Positions 28,402 to 36,321 of a DNA stretch of 64,000 bases are shown in pieces. The notes below the pieces were generated by a model, which was not told the DNA's origin, ran no database searches, and saw nothing but the letters and a program-made list of their open reading frames with translations. Positions within the stretch are counted from its first letter, which is position 1. Each line of letters begins with the position of its first letter. Source of the DNA: Humisphaera borealis (GTDB taxonomy: Bacteria > Planctomycetota > Phycisphaerae > Tepidisphaerales > Tepidisphaeraceae); contig NZ_CP063458.1 in assembly GCF_015169395.1 (NCBI RefSeq), positions 1,302,001 to 1,366,000 on the forward strand, in the 5' to 3' direction. Both the position numbers and the translations under genes were made by a program.

Positions 28402-31400
28402 CTAGGTGATCTCGATGAAGTTGATCCGCGTCACGCCCGTTGCAGCCCCTCCGACGCCGAGCGACAGTTTACCGTCGGCGACTGTGACCGTGATCGACTT
28501 GCTGCTGAAGGTGTTCGCCGTAAGTGCGACGTAATTGAACAGGTTGGCACTTTCGATCCAGACGTTGTTCTGGCTGCTTGCGCCGGAATCGCCGATGCCG
28601 ACCCTCACCGTGTAGGTGCCATTGGGAACAGCGACTTCCCATCTGGCACCCGCCTTCACACCTACATTAGTATCGAGCAGTTGATTGGTATTCTTGTTAC
28701 GATCGACGACGGCATCACTGTGGCTGATCGTCCATCCGTAGGTGCGGCCGTTTCGCGTGCCGTAGGTCGCCCCGGTATCGACCATATATCCGGCCACCGT
28801 CGGAGCCGAAGCAGGCTGGAACTTGATCTTGGTTGCCCCTGTTGTAGTCGGCGGAGGCGATATCGGTGGAGGGGACGTTGGCGGAGGAGACACAGGTGGG
28901 GGAAGCGTCGTTGTCTGACTCTGCTGAACGAGCAGTTCCGGCCGATTCGCGGTCGCTTCATCGCTGACAATGGTAACCCATGGCGTCGCAGCCGCGATCG
29001 CCTTGATTGCAAAGTTCACGGTGACGACGCCGGCCGCCTTTTGTTGCCTCACGTAGTTCGTCACATCGAACTCGATCCAGGTCGCGCCGGTTGCCGAAAT
29101 CGTTCGGGTCGCCAAGGCGGTCGCTGAAGTTGCGGGCTTATTGCTCCACTTGAGGCCGGACTCCGTCCAAGTCGCCGAGCTGACGGCAAAAAGGCCGATA
29201 GACACCCCACTCGCAAGTGCTTGAGAGAGCTTGCCCGCGACACGCACCTTCGCCGAGGTCAGTCCGGACGACGGACCGACGGTCGTTAGGTCGAAGCGAA
29301 GATATGCCTCACGGGAGTTGCCGGCAATCGTATTCTTGCGCACGTGAAGTTCGCTGGCCGACCCAAAATTGGTCGCTGCATAGGATCCGTCCCGAACATA
29401 CGCGTCAGCAGATGCCCGAAGCGCGATCGAAGGGGACCGTCGAATGAGCACATCGGCAGAGAAGTTCTGGCCGGCCGCCACGCTGATGGTTCGCTGAATG
29501 GAGATGTTGTTGGAGGGTGACCAACCCGCCGGTGTGACCACTCCGATGCGATATCCGCCGGGCGCGAGGTTGGCGAATGAATAGGCGCCGGTAGCTAAGG
29601 TTGTTACGACGGGATCAAGCCCGTCGCGAATGCTGTTTCCGTTCAAGTCGAGGAAGACTTGCGTGTTGGCCAGCCCTGGCTCGGATGGCGCAAGGATGCC
29701 GTTGCCGTCTGTGTCCTGACCGACCCGTCCGGATATCGACGCGGGCGCGGTCACCGCAACGACCTGCGATGGAGGTGAAACTCCCGCCGCATTCATGGAC
29801 GCCACGCGATAGTACGCAGTCGTCGGTGCCGCAGGATCGGTCCACGCCTGTGCGTTTGCGTTGACCCAAACATTGCTGGTTGGGCCGGAAAAGTCTGGCG
29901 ATGTCGATCGCTCGACGTAGAATCCGGTTTCAGTTGAGGCGCGGTCTTTCCAACTGACCTGAACCCTCGTCGCGGCAGGCAACGCGCCAGTGCCGACTGC
30001 AGGCATATAGCGAGCCGAGAGTGCTGCGACTGGCGTTGAAGGGTCGGCAATTGCGCGGACCTCATCCGGAGCTATCGGGGCTGTTCCCGAGACGCACCAA
30101 AGCTGATCGTTGCTACCGTTGACATCCGTCGCCTTGTAAAAGAGCGAGCCGTTCACCTCGGCGAGCCGTCCGCCGAGTTCGGCGAAGACTGGTGCTCCAT
30201 TCGCGACGAAGATGGTACCGGCTGATGTGCCATCCGTGCGATAGAGTCGAGTGTCGTCAATGAAGTAGACCTTGTCTCCGACGCGATAAAGTACCCGTTT
30301 GAAAAGGGACGGCTGGGCAATGGGCTTCAATGCCGAGAGAGTTGAAACGATGTCCGGGGTGATCGTGACGAGGCTTCCGTCTAGGGCTGCGATCAGTCGG
30401 CCACCCAAGCCCACGATTTGATCGGTGCGTACCCCGCCTAGGCGTAATACGGCGGAGCCTCCGCCGGCATCGACTTCATATAGGGCGTTGCCCGCAGTAC
30501 CGAAGTAGACTTTGCCAGCGAGGGGCCCCAGCCCGGTGCCGGCAATGACCGTCGGTCCGCCGGTGGGGGATGTGCAAACCAGACGCGTACCGGCGGCGGT
30601 TCCATCGGTTGCATAAAGCCCCGCGGAACCACCCCCCACACCGAAATAGACTGTGCCGTTGATGATCGTTAGAGCCGTGATTTGCGTCGATTCGGGACCT
30701 GTGCTGAGGTCGGCGACGACCGACGTGCCAGACGGGCTGCCATCGGTTCGCCAAAGTTCTACGCCGCCCGCGGGGGTGGTGCCGACGAAGCAGAGGGTAG
30801 ATCCCGAAACAATGGGGCTCGGCTTGCCTGGTGAAGCGGTGCCGGGGCCCTGGTAGGGCCCGACATAAAGCGAGACGTCTTCGATCGGCTTTGTTCCGCC
30901 CTCGGTCCCGTCACTTGTCCAGAGCGTGCGAGTTTCCGAAAACGGGTCGGGCGTTGAACTGAAAAACAGTCGGTCTCCGGCGGCGATAAAGTCGCTGTAC
31001 TCGACGTAGGTATCCGATGTGCCCGGCGGAGCGAGCTGGCGGACAATCCGTGTGCCTGTGTCGGTTCCGTCGGAGGACCAGAGGTACTGCCCTACGCTAC
31101 TGTCGCCGGTCCTGAAGTAGAGGAGGTTTCCAGCAACCGTAAGCTCTGCAGGAGTGACGCCCTTCACGGGGTCTAGCAGGACAACCAGCTTGGTTCCGGA
31201 CGCGGTCCCGTCGCTTCGCCAGAGCCCCGGAACAGAGACGCCCGACGTAAAATAGCAGTAGCCTTTGTATGAAGTCAGATCATTCGGAAACCGTGCAATG
31301 CCGACGTTCGCATCGTCGACCGGGCTTGCAAGGCCGGGCATCGTCAGTCGCAGCAGGTCCGACGGGTTGAAGTTGCCGTCGCTTGTTCGTCGGTAAATGG

Positions 31401-31758
31401 TGTAGTCATAGGTCTGACCGGCCTCAATGGAAGAGTCGACGTATTCGCCCGCGGCCGGTAAGTCGCTGAAAGTGAATACCGACGGCCCCAAGGGCCCGAC
31501 CAATGACCGCCTGATGCGGACGTCTGTCACGCCGGAATCTGATGCCCAAGTCAACCGTACCGAGTACGTTGACAGAGACGCATTGGTTGGCGCGTCCGGA
31601 ATGACGTCCGCACTCTGAATAAAACGGCTCGGGTCGGAGCTAACGCCCGAGCCGTACAGCGGGCTTGGAGGATAGGCTGACAGCGCCGTCCCGACGGCGA
31701 AGAGGCGGCGGCGTTCCAGATTTTCGATCCGTGGTCGCGACGATGAAGGCTGAATCAC
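28402..31758 (-). CDS. Large secreted multidomain protein (ELW repeats, Fn3, SdrD-like B, DNRLRE, malectin-like)
   Basis: I start this 1118-residue protein at GTG 31758, which has GGGAG just upstream and puts the surface-protein motif IENLERRRLF at residues 11-20. The frame is open to 31941 but that extension looks non-coding. Order: Fn3-like domain; about seven repeats of the type LWxxDGTxxGT (beta-propeller-like); a second Fn3; an SdrD-B-like domain (GRVGQDTDGNGILAPSEPGL); a DNRLRE domain with SADAYVRDGSYAATNFGS; a proline-rich linker; and a C-terminal malectin-like carbohydrate-binding domain. Probably cell-surface or extracellular, binding polysaccharide. It ends 16 bases from the convergent cupredoxin gene. 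Confidence 0.85.
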   Translation of the reverse strand: MIQPSSSRPRIENLERRRLFAVGTALSAYPPSPLYGSGVSSDPSRFIQSADVIPDAPTNASLSTYSVRLTWASDSGVTDVRIRRSLVGPLGPSVFTFSDLPAAGEYVDSSIEAGQTYDYTIYRRTSDGNFNPSDLLRLTMPGLASPVDDANVGIARFPNDLTSYKGYCYFTSGVSVPGLWRSDGTASGTKLVVLLDPVKGVTPAELTVAGNLLYFRTGDSSVGQYLWSSDGTDTGTRIVRQLAPPGTSDTYVEYSDFIAAGDRLFFSSTPDPFSETRTLWTSDGTEGGTKPIEDVSLYVGPYQGPGTASPGKPSPIVSGSTLCFVGTTPAGGVELWRTDGSPSGTSVVADLSTGPESTQITALTIINGTVYFGVGGGSAGLYATDGTAAGTRLVCTSPTGGPTVIAGTGLGPLAGKVYFGTAGNALYEVDAGGGSAVLRLGGVRTDQIVGLGGRLIAALDGSLVTITPDIVSTLSALKPIAQPSLFKRVLYRVGDKVYFIDDTRLYRTDGTSAGTIFVANGAPVFAELGGRLAEVNGSLFYKATDVNGSNDQLWCVSGTAPIAPDEVRAIADPSTPVAALSARYMPAVGTGALPAATRVQVSWKDRASTETGFYVERSTSPDFSGPTSNVWVNANAQAWTDPAAPTTAYYRVASMNAAGVSPPSQVVAVTAPASISGRVGQDTDGNGILAPSEPGLANTQVFLDLNGNSIRDGLDPVVTTLATGAYSFANLAPGGYRIGVVTPAGWSPSNNISIQRTISVAAGQNFSADVLIRRSPSIALRASADAYVRDGSYAATNFGSASELHVRKNTIAGNSREAYLRFDLTTVGPSSGLTSAKVRVAGKLSQALASGVSIGLFAVSSATWTESGLKWSNKPATSATALATRTISATGATWIEFDVTNYVRQQKAAGVVTVNFAIKAIAAATPWVTIVSDEATANRPELLVQQSQTTTLPPPVSPPPTSPPPISPPPTTTGATKIKFQPASAPTVAGYMVDTGATYGTRNGRTYGWTISHSDAVVDRNKNTNQLLDTNVGVKAGARWEVAVPNGTYTVRVGIGDSGASSQNNVWIESANLFNYVALTANTFSSKSITVTVADGKLSLGVGGAATGVTRINFIEIT

Positions 31759-31984
31759 TGGAAGACTTCTCCCACGACTATGCCACAGTCCCCAAGTGCT
31801 GCCGTGGGCGAACCGCCCCGGTTCACAGACATTGATCAAGGTATTTAAGGGAAAGTAGTCCCCTGCTGCCGTGGCATGCATGAACATACCACGGGCCTCT
31901 AAGCTGGCCAACCGGATTTCAACTATCGCCGAAAGGTGCAAGCACTTGTTAACGGCCTCTCGTTTACTTTAAGAATTTGACGAA

Positions 31985-32068
31985 ATGGCGTTTCCCGCTA
32001 CGATCATCGCAATGCTGTCTGTTGCCTACGTCGCCCGGCCCATTATTACGCCCCGACATCTCGGGTAG
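31985..32068 (+). CDS. Leader peptide of the cimA attenuator
   Basis: A 27-codon ORF starting at ATG 31985 and ending at TAG 32066-32068. It holds tandem isoleucine pairs at codons 7-8 (ATC ATC) and 20-21 (ATT ATT), plus two Val and two Leu codons. Its final Gly codon and stop lie inside the antiterminator arm (32063-32071). The second Ile pair sits so that a stalled ribosome would cover 32033-32041 and leave that arm free. No strong Shine-Dalgarno precedes it. It would act through ribosome position rather than as a product. Confidence 0.7.
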   Translation: MAFPATIIAMLSVAYVARPIITPRHLG

Positions 32069-32128
32069 GGCCGACGTCTTAGCTTGTTTGAATGACGACC
32101 AGAGCCCTGCCCATTGGCAGGGTTTTTT
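32033..32128 (+). promoter_or_regulatory. Isoleucine-responsive transcription attenuator of cimA
   Basis: Four segments can pair in alternative ways. Segment 1 is GCCCGGCCC at 32033-32041. Segment 2 is GGGTAGGGC at 32063-32071. Segment 3 is GCCCTGCCC at 32104-32112. Segment 4 is GGCAGGG at 32116-32122. 2:3 pairs over nine positions with one G-U. 3:4 is a 7-bp terminator stem followed by six T. 1:2 pairs with one mismatch. Segment 2 spans the leader stop codon. This is the classic layout of amino-acid attenuators, directly ahead of an isoleucine-pathway gene. Confidence 0.78.
32105..32128 (+). terminator. Intrinsic terminator within the cimA leader
   Basis: CCCTGCC (32105-32111), loop CATT, GGCAGGG (32116-32122), then TTTTTT. 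No plus-strand gene precedes it within 3.8 kb, so it must act on the cimA leader transcript. Confidence 0.88.
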
Positions 32129-32204
32129 GTTTAGACCGCTTTCGAATCCTTGTGGTTGCCCGGTACGCCGCAACTGACAAATGACCAGTGACAAAGGACC
32201 ACCC

Positions 32205-33815
32205 ATGTCCCGCATCGAAATCTACGACACCACCCTCCGTGACGGCACGCAGGGCGAAGGCTTCAATCTCTCGCTGCAGGACAAGCTCGCGATTGCTCAG
32301 AAGCTCGACGAACTGGGCGTGGATTACATCGAAGGTGGCTTTCCTCTTTCCAACCCGAAGGATGCCGCGTTTTTTCGCGATGTGCGTGAGCTGAAGCTCA
32401 AACACGCCAAGGTCGCCGCATTTGGCATGACCCGGCGGCGCGGGATCAAGGCCGAGGACGACCCCGGCATGAAGGCGCTGCTTGAGGCCGAAACGCCGGT
32501 GGTGACGATCGTCGGCAAATCCAGCGAGTTCCAGGTGACCAAGGTGCTTGGGGTGTCGCTGGAGGAGAACCTGAAGATGATCGGCGATACCGTCGCGTTG
32601 ATGCGGTCAGCCGGGCGGCAGGTGGTTTACGACGCCGAGCATTTCTTCGACGCCTATAAGGCCAACGCTGAGTACGCCATCCGCACGCTGCTGGCGGCGC
32701 AGGAAGCGGGCGCGTCGGTGCTGGCGCTGTGCGACACGAACGGCGGATCGATGCCCGAGCATGTGGCCCGCGCCGTGGCGGACGTATTGAAGCAGACGTC
32801 GGCCCGAGTCGGTGTTCATACCCACAACGATTGCGGCATGGCGATGGCCAACGGTCTGGCGGGTATCGCCGCGGGTGCCACGCACGGGCAGGGAACGATC
32901 AATGGCGTCGGCGAGCGGTGCGGTAACATGGACCTGCTGCCGTTCATCGCCAACCTTCGCCTGAAGTACGGCCACGACTGCCTTCGGGCCGACAGCCTCA
33001 AACACCTGACGGAGACCAGCCGGTACGTCTATGAGATCGCGAACATGAGCCCGATCAACGGCCAGCCTTACGTCGGGGCGAGCGCCTTTGCGCACAAGGG
33101 CGGCATGCACGTTCATGCCGTGCAGAAGGACGCCAGCACGTACGAGCATGTTTCGCCGGAGACGGTGGGCAACAGCCGCAAGGTGCTGGTGAGCGAGATG
33201 TCCGGCCAGAGCAACATCGCCGCCAAGGCGGGTAAGAAGTTCGACATCGAGTCGGACAAGGAGGTGTTGCGCAAGGTCCTCGGCCGCGTGCAGGACCTTG
33301 AGAACGAGGGGTATCAGTTCGAGGCTGCCGAGGCGAGTTTCGAACTGCTGCTTCGGAAAGAGATCGGGCGGTACCGCAAGTATTTCGAACTTGACCATTA
33401 CCGCTGCGTCATCCTCCGGCAGAACGGCAGCGATCCGCTTAGCGAGGCGACGGTCAAGCTGCACGTCGGCGGCGACAGTCAGCATCAGGTCGCCGAAGGC
33501 GACGGCCCGGTGGCCGCGCTGGACGGCGCGCTGCGCAAGGCGCTGCGGGCACATTACCCCCAGATCGATCAGGTCCACCTGACCGACTACAAGGTTCGCG
33601 TCATCAACAGCAAGGACGAGACGTCGGCGAAGGTGCGGGTGGTGATCGAATGCAAGCGGAACCGCTCACCCGGCGACGGCAGCACGGAAGGAAAAAAGGA
33701 GCTGTTCGGCACCATCGGCGTCAGCACGAACGTGATCGACGCCAGCTGGCAGGCGCTCGTGGACGCGTATGAGTATCATCTGGTGCATGTGGAGGAGGGG
33801 GCTGGGCAGCCTTGA
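32205..33815 (+). CDS. cimA: Citramalate synthase (2-isopropylmalate/homocitrate synthase family)
   Basis: A 536-residue enzyme condensing pyruvate and acetyl-CoA to (R)-citramalate, the first step of the threonine-independent route to isoleucine. It has the N-terminal catalytic signature YDTTLRDGTQGEGFNLS, the metal-site HTHNDCG, and GTINGVGERCGNMDL. The C-terminal LeuA allosteric-type dimer domain spans about 400-530. The CimA class is recognised by the GEGF variant and total length. AAAGGA (32193-32198) supports ATG 32205. An attenuator with an Ile-rich leader peptide lies directly upstream, consistent with end-product control at transcription. Confidence 0.93.
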   Translation: MSRIEIYDTTLRDGTQGEGFNLSLQDKLAIAQKLDELGVDYIEGGFPLSNPKDAAFFRDVRELKLKHAKVAAFGMTRRRGIKAEDDPGMKALLEAETPVVTIVGKSSEFQVTKVLGVSLEENLKMIGDTVALMRSAGRQVVYDAEHFFDAYKANAEYAIRTLLAAQEAGASVLALCDTNGGSMPEHVARAVADVLKQTSARVGVHTHNDCGMAMANGLAGIAAGATHGQGTINGVGERCGNMDLLPFIANLRLKYGHDCLRADSLKHLTETSRYVYEIANMSPINGQPYVGASAFAHKGGMHVHAVQKDASTYEHVSPETVGNSRKVLVSEMSGQSNIAAKAGKKFDIESDKEVLRKVLGRVQDLENEGYQFEAAEASFELLLRKEIGRYRKYFELDHYRCVILRQNGSDPLSEATVKLHVGGDSQHQVAEGDGPVAALDGALRKALRAHYPQIDQVHLTDYKVRVINSKDETSAKVRVVIECKRNRSPGDGSTEGKKELFGTIGVSTNVIDASWQALVDAYEYHLVHVEEGAGQP

Positions 33816-33869
33816 TCGCCGGGTGCCCTCCTTGCATCCATCCCTCCGCCGCCGGACAATCGCCGGACA

Positions 33870-34658
33870 ATGTCCGTCGCCCCCGATCTCTCAGACCTCC
33901 CGCGCAACAAGATCCCCCGGCACATCGCCGTCATCATGGACGGCAATGGACGCTGGGCAGTCAAACGCGGTCTGGAGCGGGTGCGGGGGCACCAGCAGGG
34001 CGCTCGCACCGTGCGCGACATCGTCACCGAGTGCGCCCGGCTGAGGAAAGAGTTCGGTGGGCCGGACTACCTCACCCTTTACTCCTTCAGCCTCGAAAAC
34101 TGGAAGCGCCCGGTCGATGAAGTCACGTTCCTGATGCAGATGTACATCGACTACCTGCGCAGCGAACGGGCGACCATGATGGAGAACAACATCCGCTTCC
34201 AGCAGATCGGCCGGCTGGAGAATCTGCCGCTGCCGGTGCTCAATGAGATGGAACGGACGCTGGAAGAGACGAAGCACAACACCGGCCTGACGCTGGTGTT
34301 GGCACTGAACTACGGCAGCCGGGCCGAGATCGTTGACGCCGTGCAGGCCATCGCACGGGAAGTGAAGGAAGGCCGGCTCAAACCGGAACAGATCAACGAA
34401 GAGGTCATCAGCGGCCACCTCTACACCGCCGGCATGCCCGACCCGGATTTGCTGATTCGCACCGCCGGCGAAATGCGGGTGAGCAACTACCTGCTGTGGC
34501 AGATCAGCTACGCGGAACTGTTCGTGAGTCCGACGCTCTGGCCCGATTTCGGCGTCGCCGACCTACACGAGGGAATCCGCGCGTTTGCCAGCCGCAACCG
34601 GCGATTTGGAGCGCTGGATCACACCAACACGTTGAAGGCAGTAGGCAGTAGGCAGTAG
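33870..34658 (+). CDS. uppS: Isoprenyl transferase / undecaprenyl diphosphate synthase
   Basis: A 262-residue cis-prenyltransferase. Signatures: HIAVIMDGNGRWAVKRG with the catalytic Asp, LTLYSFSLENWKRP, LNYGSRAEIVDAV, and the C-terminal DLLIRTAGEMRVSNYLLWQ (usual family form RTSGExRxSNFLLWQ). It makes undecaprenyl diphosphate, the carrier lipid for cell-wall and polysaccharide synthesis. cdsA follows about 700 bases downstream on the same strand, a common uppS-cdsA neighbourhood, interrupted here by a minus-strand lipoprotein gene. The stop codon falls inside a 7-bp tandem repeat (34637-34664). Confidence 0.95.
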   Translation: MSVAPDLSDLPRNKIPRHIAVIMDGNGRWAVKRGLERVRGHQQGARTVRDIVTECARLRKEFGGPDYLTLYSFSLENWKRPVDEVTFLMQMYIDYLRSERATMMENNIRFQQIGRLENLPLPVLNEMERTLEETKHNTGLTLVLALNYGSRAEIVDAVQAIAREVKEGRLKPEQINEEVISGHLYTAGMPDPDLLIRTAGEMRVSNYLLWQISYAELFVSPTLWPDFGVADLHEGIRAFASRNRRFGALDHTNTLKAVGSRQ

Positions 34659-34664
34659 GCAGTA
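34637..34664. repeat. Four tandem copies of GGCAGTA across the uppS stop codon
   Basis: Four exact 7-bp units. The uppS stop TAG is bases 34656-34658, inside the third and fourth units, so copy-number change would alter the protein C-terminus. Confidence 0.9.
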
Positions 34665-34753
34665 CTGCTATGCGCGTTCGGTGCGAAGCTACAGGTCTGG
34701 GGTAGGCGAGCGGGCATTTCTCAGCGTTGAACGCCTCAGCCCTTTCCTGCAAC

Positions 34754-35068
34754 TCAATCTTTTCGTTTCCACACCATCGAAGCATCTTCATACGTCCAGA
34801 TGCTCTCACCGGCCACCACGTTGATCCGGCCGGTTTCGGCGGTTTTGAAGCCGATGGCATCGCCTTTGCGCAAAGGGATGGGCCCCTTGATCGTCGATGG
34901 CGGGAACTTCTGGTGCAGGGTGTATTCGCCGTCGCTTGGGGCTTCGATCGGCGTTTCCAGGTTTCCGGCGTCGTGCGTACAGACGACCGTGCCGCCGCAA
35001 CCGACGAGCAGTGCCGCACATGGGATCAGCATCAACAGCAGCAGGCGACGAGAAACAGTCGGCGGCAT
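34754..35068 (-). CDS. Small lipoprotein of unknown function
   Basis: A 104-residue predicted lipoprotein: basic N-terminus, hydrophobic core, lipobox LLVGC (C24). The mature part of about 80 residues is beta-rich (GEYTLHQKF, GDAIGFKTAETGRINVVAG). AGGAG upstream of the ATG supports the start. No family is recognised. It is antisense between uppS and cdsA. Confidence 0.7.
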   Translation of the reverse strand: MPPTVSRRLLLLMLIPCAALLVGCGGTVVCTHDAGNLETPIEAPSDGEYTLHQKFPPSTIKGPIPLRKGDAIGFKTAETGRINVVAGESIWTYEDASMVWKRKD

Positions 35069-35364
35069 GACAGTGGCTCCTGGGCACGAGCGAAAGACTT
35101 CGCGTGAGACTCGATTCGAATCGACAGGCCCTGGGCCTGTTCCCGACCGCGCTGTTATCGGTCAACCGGGCCTCCCAACTTCACCGTTTGATTGCAACCG
35201 CGACGCCACTCGCGTAAACCATCCCGCCCGGTCGTGCCGGCTTGTGTGACGCCCGGATCACGGTTCGCCTTGCGGTATCGGCACATCGGCTGGCCAAGCG
35301 TACTTGCCCGTGACCGGCAGCGTCCGGCGAATCCTGATGTCCCCTCTCCGTTGATGTCTCTCCT

Positions 35365-36321
35365 ATGGAAGCCTCCCTTCGCAACCGCCTGACCTTCGGC
35401 CCGATCATGCTCCTGGGCCTCGTCGGTCTTTTGTGGCTCGATGCCAATTTCCAGGGCATGACGCGTCAGTGGACACAGGACTATTTCGGCTACAGGCAGT
35501 TTGAGCCGAACAAGTTTGAGATGCCTTCAGGCGTCGGCGGGTTGGGGCTGCTCATCATCCTCGCGATCGTGCTGCCGATCGCGACGAAAGAGATCGGCAC
35601 ACTTTTCGCCGCCGAGCGAGTGAAGCCGTACCCGCTGATCGCCGCGCTGGGTTCCGGTGCGATCGTGCTTCACGCGTTTCTCACGCAGTTCCCGCCCTTC
35701 AAAGTCGTCGCCGCTTCGGCACTGGCTTTTATCGTTGCGTTCATTCCCCTGCTGGCGGCGCTGCGGCGGGCCTGGGACAAGCAGACCCAGGAAGCGATTG
35801 TCCGCATGGCAGGCACCGTGCTCGCCTCTCTCTACCTCGGCGGACTCGGGTGGTTCCTGATGGCGATCCGGGTCAAGCAGGGACAGGGGGAGAGCGGTTT
35901 CAAGGGGACCACCGCGATCATCCTTATGATCCTGCTGATGGTGAAGTTCACCGACATTGGCGCCTACTTCGGCGGTCGTGCACTCGGCCGCCACAAGCTC
36001 ATCCCCTGGCTCAGCCCGGGTAAGACATGGGAGGGCCTGTTCTGCGGCCTGGCGACTGCCGCGGGCGTGGGCGCTCTTTTTGCACTGGGTGCCGGCACGA
36101 ACGGCATACCGGCCAACTGGGTCTGGTGGCGCGGCGTCGTCTTCGGTGTCGTGATCGGTGGGATCGGTCAGGCCGGCGACCTGCTGGAGTCGATGATGAA
36201 ACGCGACGCCGAAGTCAAAGACAGCGGCAAACTCGTTCCCGGCTTCGGCGGTGTGCTCGACATCATCGACAGCCCGCTCCTTGCTGCGCCGTTCGCCTAC
36301 CTGATGTTCAGTCTGGTATGA
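35365..36321 (+). CDS. cdsA: Phosphatidate cytidylyltransferase
   Basis: A 318-residue polytopic membrane protein with about eight hydrophobic segments. The family signature is near the C-terminus: LLESMMKRDAEVKDSGKLVP followed by GFGGVLDIIDS, matching S-x(3)-KR-x2-x-KD-x5-PGHGG-x2-DR-x-D with His replaced by Phe and Arg by Ile. It makes CDP-diacylglycerol for phospholipid synthesis at the inner membrane. The Phe/Ile replacements in the signature are also seen in some non-proteobacterial CdsA proteins. It converges on the hybrid kinase gene with a 25-base gap. Confidence 0.9.
   Translation: MEASLRNRLTFGPIMLLGLVGLLWLDANFQGMTRQWTQDYFGYRQFEPNKFEMPSGVGGLGLLIILAIVLPIATKEIGTLFAAERVKPYPLIAALGSGAIVLHAFLTQFPPFKVVAASALAFIVAFIPLLAALRRAWDKQTQEAIVRMAGTVLASLYLGGLGWFLMAIRVKQGQGESGFKGTTAIILMILLMVKFTDIGAYFGGRALGRHKLIPWLSPGKTWEGLFCGLATAAGVGALFALGAGTNGIPANWVWWRGVVFGVVIGGIGQAGDLLESMMKRDAEVKDSGKLVPGFGGVLDIIDSPLLAAPFAYLMFSLV

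Follow-up and report, generated by a model that had tools for sequence, protein, structure and literature searches.

A predicted trp-type attenuator with isoleucine codons in front of the citramalate synthase gene cimA of Humisphaera borealis, and related leaders in other planctomycetes

The cimA locus and its leader region

The gene at positions 32205..33815 (forward strand) of the window, that is, of the whole 64-kb stretch of Humisphaera borealis DNA that was analysed, encodes a citramalate synthase (CimA). Its score with the NCBIfam equivalog TIGR00977, 666 bits, exceeds the cut-off of 450, in agreement with the gene identity given in the original prediction, which was made from the letters of this DNA. 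In isoleucine synthesis, citramalate synthase catalyzes the first committed step. Threonine deaminase, which would provide the rival isoleucine route, has a partial match below the cut-off in the genome; therefore, cimA is not claimed here as the sole route to this amino acid. A large divergent open reading frame (ORF) of about 1,179 amino acids lies at 28402-31941 on the reverse strand. In its longest reading it extends to position 31941, leaving 36 nt to the cimA promoter, but its start is probably located further inside. The region between the two genes contains the following elements:

31977..31982, forward strand: -35 hexamer TTGACG of a predicted sigma70-type promoter, conserved in the family
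31999..32004, forward strand: -10 hexamer TACGAT, with a predicted transcription start at about 32010-32012
32012..32068, forward strand: leader ORF of 18 codons, MLSVAYVARPIITPRHLG, stop codon TAG at 32066-32068; predicted to be leaderless, with the layout seen in relatives
32028..32041, forward strand: segment 1, overlapping leader codons 5' of the Ile pair and forming the anti-antiterminator helix with 32063-32077
32042..32047, forward strand: predicted regulatory Ile-Ile codons ATT ATT, placed by the position of the Ile peak in 38 leaders
32063..32071, forward strand: segment 2, GGGTAGGGC, 5' arm of the antiterminator, holding the leader stop codon (pairing, conservation)
32104..32112, forward strand: segment 3, GCCCTGCCC, 3' arm of the antiterminator and 5' arm of the terminator (pairing, covariation at 32112)
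32101..32128, forward strand: intrinsic terminator, 11-bp stem with a G-U pair, core CCCTGCC/GGCAGGG, 4-nt loop and six T (fold, conservation)
32205..33815, forward strand: cimA, the putatively regulated gene (TIGR00977 equivalog)

The pairings proposed in the original prediction were recovered. The antiterminator, 32063-32071 with 32104-32112, is exactly as described (9 bp, one G-U), and so is the terminator, a 7-bp stem between 32105-32111 and 32116-32122 followed by six T (32123-32128). The terminator is located between the leader ORF and cimA and is conserved in relatives; the antiterminator uses its 5' arm, and the two structures are mutually exclusive. The upstream segment proposed to pair with segment 2 (32033-32041) does so, in a helix that extends outward through 32028-32033:32072-32077. 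In the fold, segment 1 occupies the 14 nt that immediately precede the Ile pair, where a ribosome stalled at these codons would be expected to cover it. The leader ends inside 32063-32071, as had been proposed, with its TAG within segment 2 both here and in most relatives, so placed that a ribosome at the stop codon would cover this segment.

The start of the leader, on the contrary, had to be corrected. It had been given as a 27-codon ORF from 31985, which is open but has no equivalent in relatives and starts inside the promoter: AUG 31985 sits between the -35 and -10 hexamers, and the transcription start predicted by the promoter falls only after the first nine codons. Two Ile pairs had been counted; the second (32042-32047) is retained as the regulatory one, while the first (codons 7-8, 32003-32008) overlaps the -10 hexamer and would not be translated. 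The promoter hexamers place the expected start of the transcript at about 32011; the next in-frame AUG is 32012, most likely the start of a translated leader of 18 codons.

This placement agrees with the cimA upstream regions of the family, in which a promoter of the form TTGAC-N16/17-TANNNT has its -10 hexamer ending 6-10 nt before an ORF of 18-20 codons. All 16 family leaders with a promoter detected by the scan carry TTGA(C/T) at the equivalent place, 16-17 nt 5' of the -10 hexamer; the scan found no promoter at one family locus (L019). Among the 38 leaders collected at the level of the class, the -10 hexamer ends 6-10 nt 5' of the start codon in 35, and a promoter score of >=9/12 at a gap of 5-11 was reached by 27/38, compared with 6/1900 shuffled controls. 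Only three of the 38 contain a Shine-Dalgarno-like 4-mer. A start codon so close to the -10 hexamer, together with the rarity of Shine-Dalgarno-like 4-mers, suggests that the transcript, whose start is predicted from the conserved promoter, is probably leaderless.

The set of segments is beyond chance. A fixed definition was used, consisting of a 7-bp terminator, an 8-bp antiterminator overlapping its 5' arm, and an Ile-Ile ORF ending in the antiterminator. When 31985-32204 was shuffled 20,000 times with its dinucleotides preserved, 121 of the shuffled sequences contained the terminator and nine the terminator plus the antiterminator; the full set, including the Ile-Ile ORF ending in segment 2, appeared in none of the 20,000. 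No second place in the window, on either strand, satisfies this definition.

Conservation and covariation in relatives

The cimA upstream region could be read in 21 of 26 Tepidisphaeraceae genomes. The leader is present in 19 of these 21, and in 18 it is accompanied by the terminator; in the remaining one (G006) the terminator region is masked and reads N. Two members of the family (G012 and G013) have no leader before cimA, which counts against the proposal. The order of promoter, leader, Ile run, stop position and terminator, and the distances between them, are constant in the 18 genomes. The family leaders, of 18-20 codons, contain an Ile run and a TAG inside GGGTAGGGC; examples of their peptides are MKTFTATAGIIITPGQLG, MTPTTSIAPAIIIPQKRG and MLRIAAIARIIIIPLEIG. 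The original prediction asked for the Ile codons to be sought in relatives, and they are conserved there, with synonymous exchange between ATT and ATC; close relatives lacking the short ORF and stems, which would have spoken against it, were not the general finding. In the 38 leaders the Ile peak lies 6-9 codons before the stop, and Ile makes up 25.4% of the residues, compared with 5.0% in the genes of the window. ATT accounts for 63% of the leader Ile codons, compared with 21% in the window genes, where it is a minor codon. The H. borealis leader itself has just two consecutive Ile codons, fewer than most of its relatives, and this also counts against the proposal. One family member, L019 (G017), ends its leader with TGA and has segments 2-4 rewritten as CGGCGGCGG, CGCCCCGCCG and CGGCGGGGCG.

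Outside the family, a covariance model (R1) derived from 17 leaders of Tepidisphaeraceae was used to search 397 whole genomes of the class regardless of gene context. Several other families of Phycisphaerae have R1 matches immediately 5' of cimA, and matches 5' of ileS occur in two more families and in three Tepidisphaeraceae genomes (the identity of ileS was checked by TIGR00392 for two proteins and by sequence likeness for the others). R1 was trained with the Ile codons present, so Ile in its matches is partly built in. Five matches (L068, L069, L094, L099 and L102) were rejected on inspection. Weak matches of the model R2 (E > ~1e-6), mostly bare terminators, were left out of the counts.

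A test independent of R1, in which Ile is not built in, was applied to 80 named cimA loci and required a uORF in which Ile is clustered and, after it, a terminator. It was passed by 25 of the 55 planctomycete loci, compared with 3.3 +/- 1.6 in shuffles that kept the terminator, and by none of the 25 loci from other phyla; 25/55 is a minimum, because the strict terminator rule excludes some true members, L214 among them. Ile was the commonest residue by this test (25 loci; next Arg, 13). The passing loci span Pirellulaceae, Isosphaeraceae, Gemmata, Gimesia and Phycisphaerae.

Covariation, whose examination had also been proposed, was found in both the 2:3 and 3:4 stems. The antiterminator pair 32063:32112, which lies outside the 7-bp core of the terminator stem, is G-C in 17/38 sequences and C-G in 12/38, and the terminator shows paired changes on both sides at three positions. 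Throughout the phylum, segments 2 and 3 have been wholly rewritten and yet remain complementary (permutation p=1e-4, with kinship not fully corrected), as in CTTCGGGGT:ACCCCGAAG, TCCAGGGCT:AGCTCTGGA and TGACTTGAGG:CCTCAGGTCA. The duplex of segments 1 and 2 has an energy of -15.9 kcal/mol with true partners compared with -12.7 kcal/mol with permuted ones (p=5e-5, kinship not fully corrected); permutation within families gave p=5e-5 and the family-only set p=1e-4, again with relatedness not fully corrected.

Proposed mechanism and alternative explanations

The conserved Ile codons and the covariation in relatives support the interpretation of the original prediction, and the element is very probably a ribosome-mediated transcription attenuator of the trp type that couples cimA to charged tRNA-Ile. 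We infer its operation, from transcription start to isoleucine response, as follows. RNA polymerase would start at about 32011, and a ribosome would load directly on the 5'-terminal AUG at 32012. When isoleucyl-tRNA is plentiful, the ribosome would reach the TAG at 32066-32068 and cover segment 2; segment 3 would then pair with segment 4, forming the terminator, and transcription would stop near 32128. A ribosome stalled at the Ile codons would instead cover segment 1 and leave segment 2 free to pair with segment 3 once this is made; no terminator would form and the polymerase would enter cimA. In the absence of translation, segment 1 would keep segment 2 paired and the terminator would form.

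The leader was folded in stages, varying the position of the ribosome and the length of the transcript. For a ribosome stopped at the Ile pair, a transcript that has just been extended through segment 3 has the antiterminator as its fold of lowest energy (-23.4); addition of segment 4 shifts the preference slightly towards the terminator. The full terminator has -17.8 kcal/mol versus -16.9 kcal/mol for the antiterminator, a further point against the proposal; the switch therefore has to operate kinetically, like that of trp. A ribosome placed at the stop codon allows the terminator to form. In the finished leader free of ribosomes, segment 1 pairs with segment 2 and the terminator is formed, and segment 1 likewise holds segment 2 before segment 3 is made. 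A ribosome-free transcript ending just after segment 3 prefers the antiterminator at equilibrium, and thus the untranslated branch also depends on the order of formation.

Three other explanations were weighed. One is an additional action in trans, by the leader peptide or by the small terminated RNA, like that of peTrpL/rnTrpL of Sinorhizobium meliloti, whose leaderless leader is of similar length; a C-terminal PRxRG recurs in the family. The codons of these C-terminal residues, however, belong to segment 2 and the inner hairpin, and their recurrence is therefore explained by RNA pairing; outside the family the C-terminus differs. We regard such an additional role as very improbable.

Slightly less credit still is given to a riboswitch (a T-box or a new class) or an RNA-binding antiterminator protein that controls the terminator next to an incidental uORF. 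In Firmicutes, T-boxes typically control genes for amino-acid biosynthesis and tRNA synthetases, and ileS of Actinobacteria has a translational T-box instead of a leader-peptide attenuator. Against this, no Rfam covariance model (leader, T-box or riboswitch) matched positions 29000-36000 at E up to 1, and the identity of the amino acid is conserved despite synonymous changes, being Ile before cimA and ileS, Leu before leuA and Thr before thrS. The simplest alternative, an ordinary intrinsic terminator beside a chance short ORF, with cimA transcribed from a promoter of its own downstream, draws on the fact that intergenic terminators are common (R2 finds many bare ones elsewhere), and is just as improbable in view of the uniqueness of the full element set in the window, its fixed spacing in 18 family genomes and the covariation of the 1:2 and 2:3 pairings.

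Known systems and related leaders at other genes

Leader-peptide attenuation is a classical mechanism. The enteric attenuators of ilvGMEDA (ilvL), leuL and thrL share with the cimA leader the runs of codons, for Ile as well as Val, Leu and Thr, and the four-segment logic of antiterminator and terminator; they differ in having Shine-Dalgarno leaders and other genes, and the enteric isoleucine pathway starts from threonine. In E. coli, pheST is an example of an aminoacyl-tRNA synthetase under leader-peptide attenuation, although synthetase and phylum are other than those of the ileS and thrS leaders considered here. Streptomyces trpS and leuS are likewise controlled by leader peptides, again with other synthetases in another phylum (PMC1262725).

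The attenuator of ilvBNC in Corynebacterium glutamicum (leader MTIIRLVVVTARRLP) has a branched-chain leader and translation-dependent transcription attenuation, as proposed here, and its start codon lies one nucleotide from the transcription start, similar to the predicted leaderless cimA leader; it differs in that the target is ilvBNC, the leader is rich in Val, Ile and Leu, the model has three hairpins and the host belongs to Actinobacteria (PMC11857589). The attenuator mRNA of S. meliloti trpL (rnTrpL/peTrpL) is leaderless and begins with the AUG of the leader, as predicted for cimA, but has Trp codons, trpE as target, an alphaproteobacterial host and an action in trans as well (PMC10117765, PMC7298713). 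In Mycobacterium tuberculosis ilvB1NC, a uORF with branched-chain codons, a ribosome at the stop codon that masks the antiterminator and a terminated RNA of ~120 nt correspond to the present model, while the codons (LVVI) and the target (ilvB1) differ (PMC13236596). According to a survey of 2010, amino-acid leader peptides were known only from Proteobacteria and Actinobacteria, to which it added Firmicutes (PMC2965389). The original prediction knew of no cimA attenuator in planctomycetes; similarly, our literature search found no attenuator described for cimA or for planctomycetes, with subscription journals mostly outside its reach. The mechanism is known from other phyla, leaderless leaders included; novelty appears to lie in the gene controlled, in the phylum and in the apparent regulon.

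Similar leaders precede other genes. The leuA gene of H. borealis (L144, contig C1, ~2803750-2804000) has a Leu-rich leader with a GTG start that ends in ALRLTELRPALTGLGLGCVRS and is accompanied by the antiterminator arm GATCGTAGGG and a terminator. By eye, without statistics, the leuA upstream regions of this genome and of 17 family relatives carry Leu-rich leaders with a layout like that of cimA, and most contain GATCGTAGGG, CCCTGCGATC and a terminator. In relatives, thrS or thrS-like genes (L166, L167, L168, L210, L211) are preceded by poly-Thr leaders with terminators, for example MNAKRFTTTTTTTTHCVGR and MHRPTTTTTTTTATRHRG, each up to the stop codon. In several family genomes ilvB is preceded by leaderless uORFs ending in RLTVVVR and a stop, or similar (L195, L197, L199, L201). 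No obvious U-run terminator was seen at these four loci, which suggests that control may be exerted by Rho or at translation. At the ilvB of H. borealis (L194), no leader of the RLTVVVR type was recognised, and its ileS has no adjacent leader.

Since leuA, ilvB and thrS have related leaders, a general attenuation regulon is likely to exist. On balance, we also incline to the wider view that leaderless leader-peptide attenuators serve the Planctomycetota as a general sensor of charged tRNA in branched-chain and threonine metabolism, occupying the niche of the T-box in Firmicutes and forming an undescribed regulon across the phylum; it would comprise cimA and ileS (Ile), leuA (Leu), ilvB (Val) and thrS (poly-Thr). 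Planctomycetes have an unusual cell organisation, and a phylum-wide distribution would mean that they use attenuation, a form of control that depends on transcription and translation being tightly coupled. For cimA, the proposed attenuator would make the citramalate route the point at which isoleucine synthesis is controlled, and would yield small reporters with which coupling and leaderless translation could be tested in planctomycetes. Upstream of cimA, leuA, ilvB, ileS and thrS, annotation would gain short terminated transcripts and small ORFs that are now missing.

Some further observations concern neighbouring loci. At L179 of H. borealis, a candidate upstream of a gene for a MATE-like transporter in an apparent operon with ileS was rejected as weak, its promoter being 21 nt from the ATG. 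In the family, ileS is often found 3' of such a transporter gene (L164, L178, L185, L186, L179), and in several family genomes an Ile leader with a terminator precedes the latter. Finally, in a genome from another family of the phylum, two tandem Leu leaders, MLNGSLKLLLLSPSCGRE and MSACRTLLLLALLLLGLP, each up to its stop codon, lie before a leuA-like gene (L165; G566 contig 58, 3226-3566).
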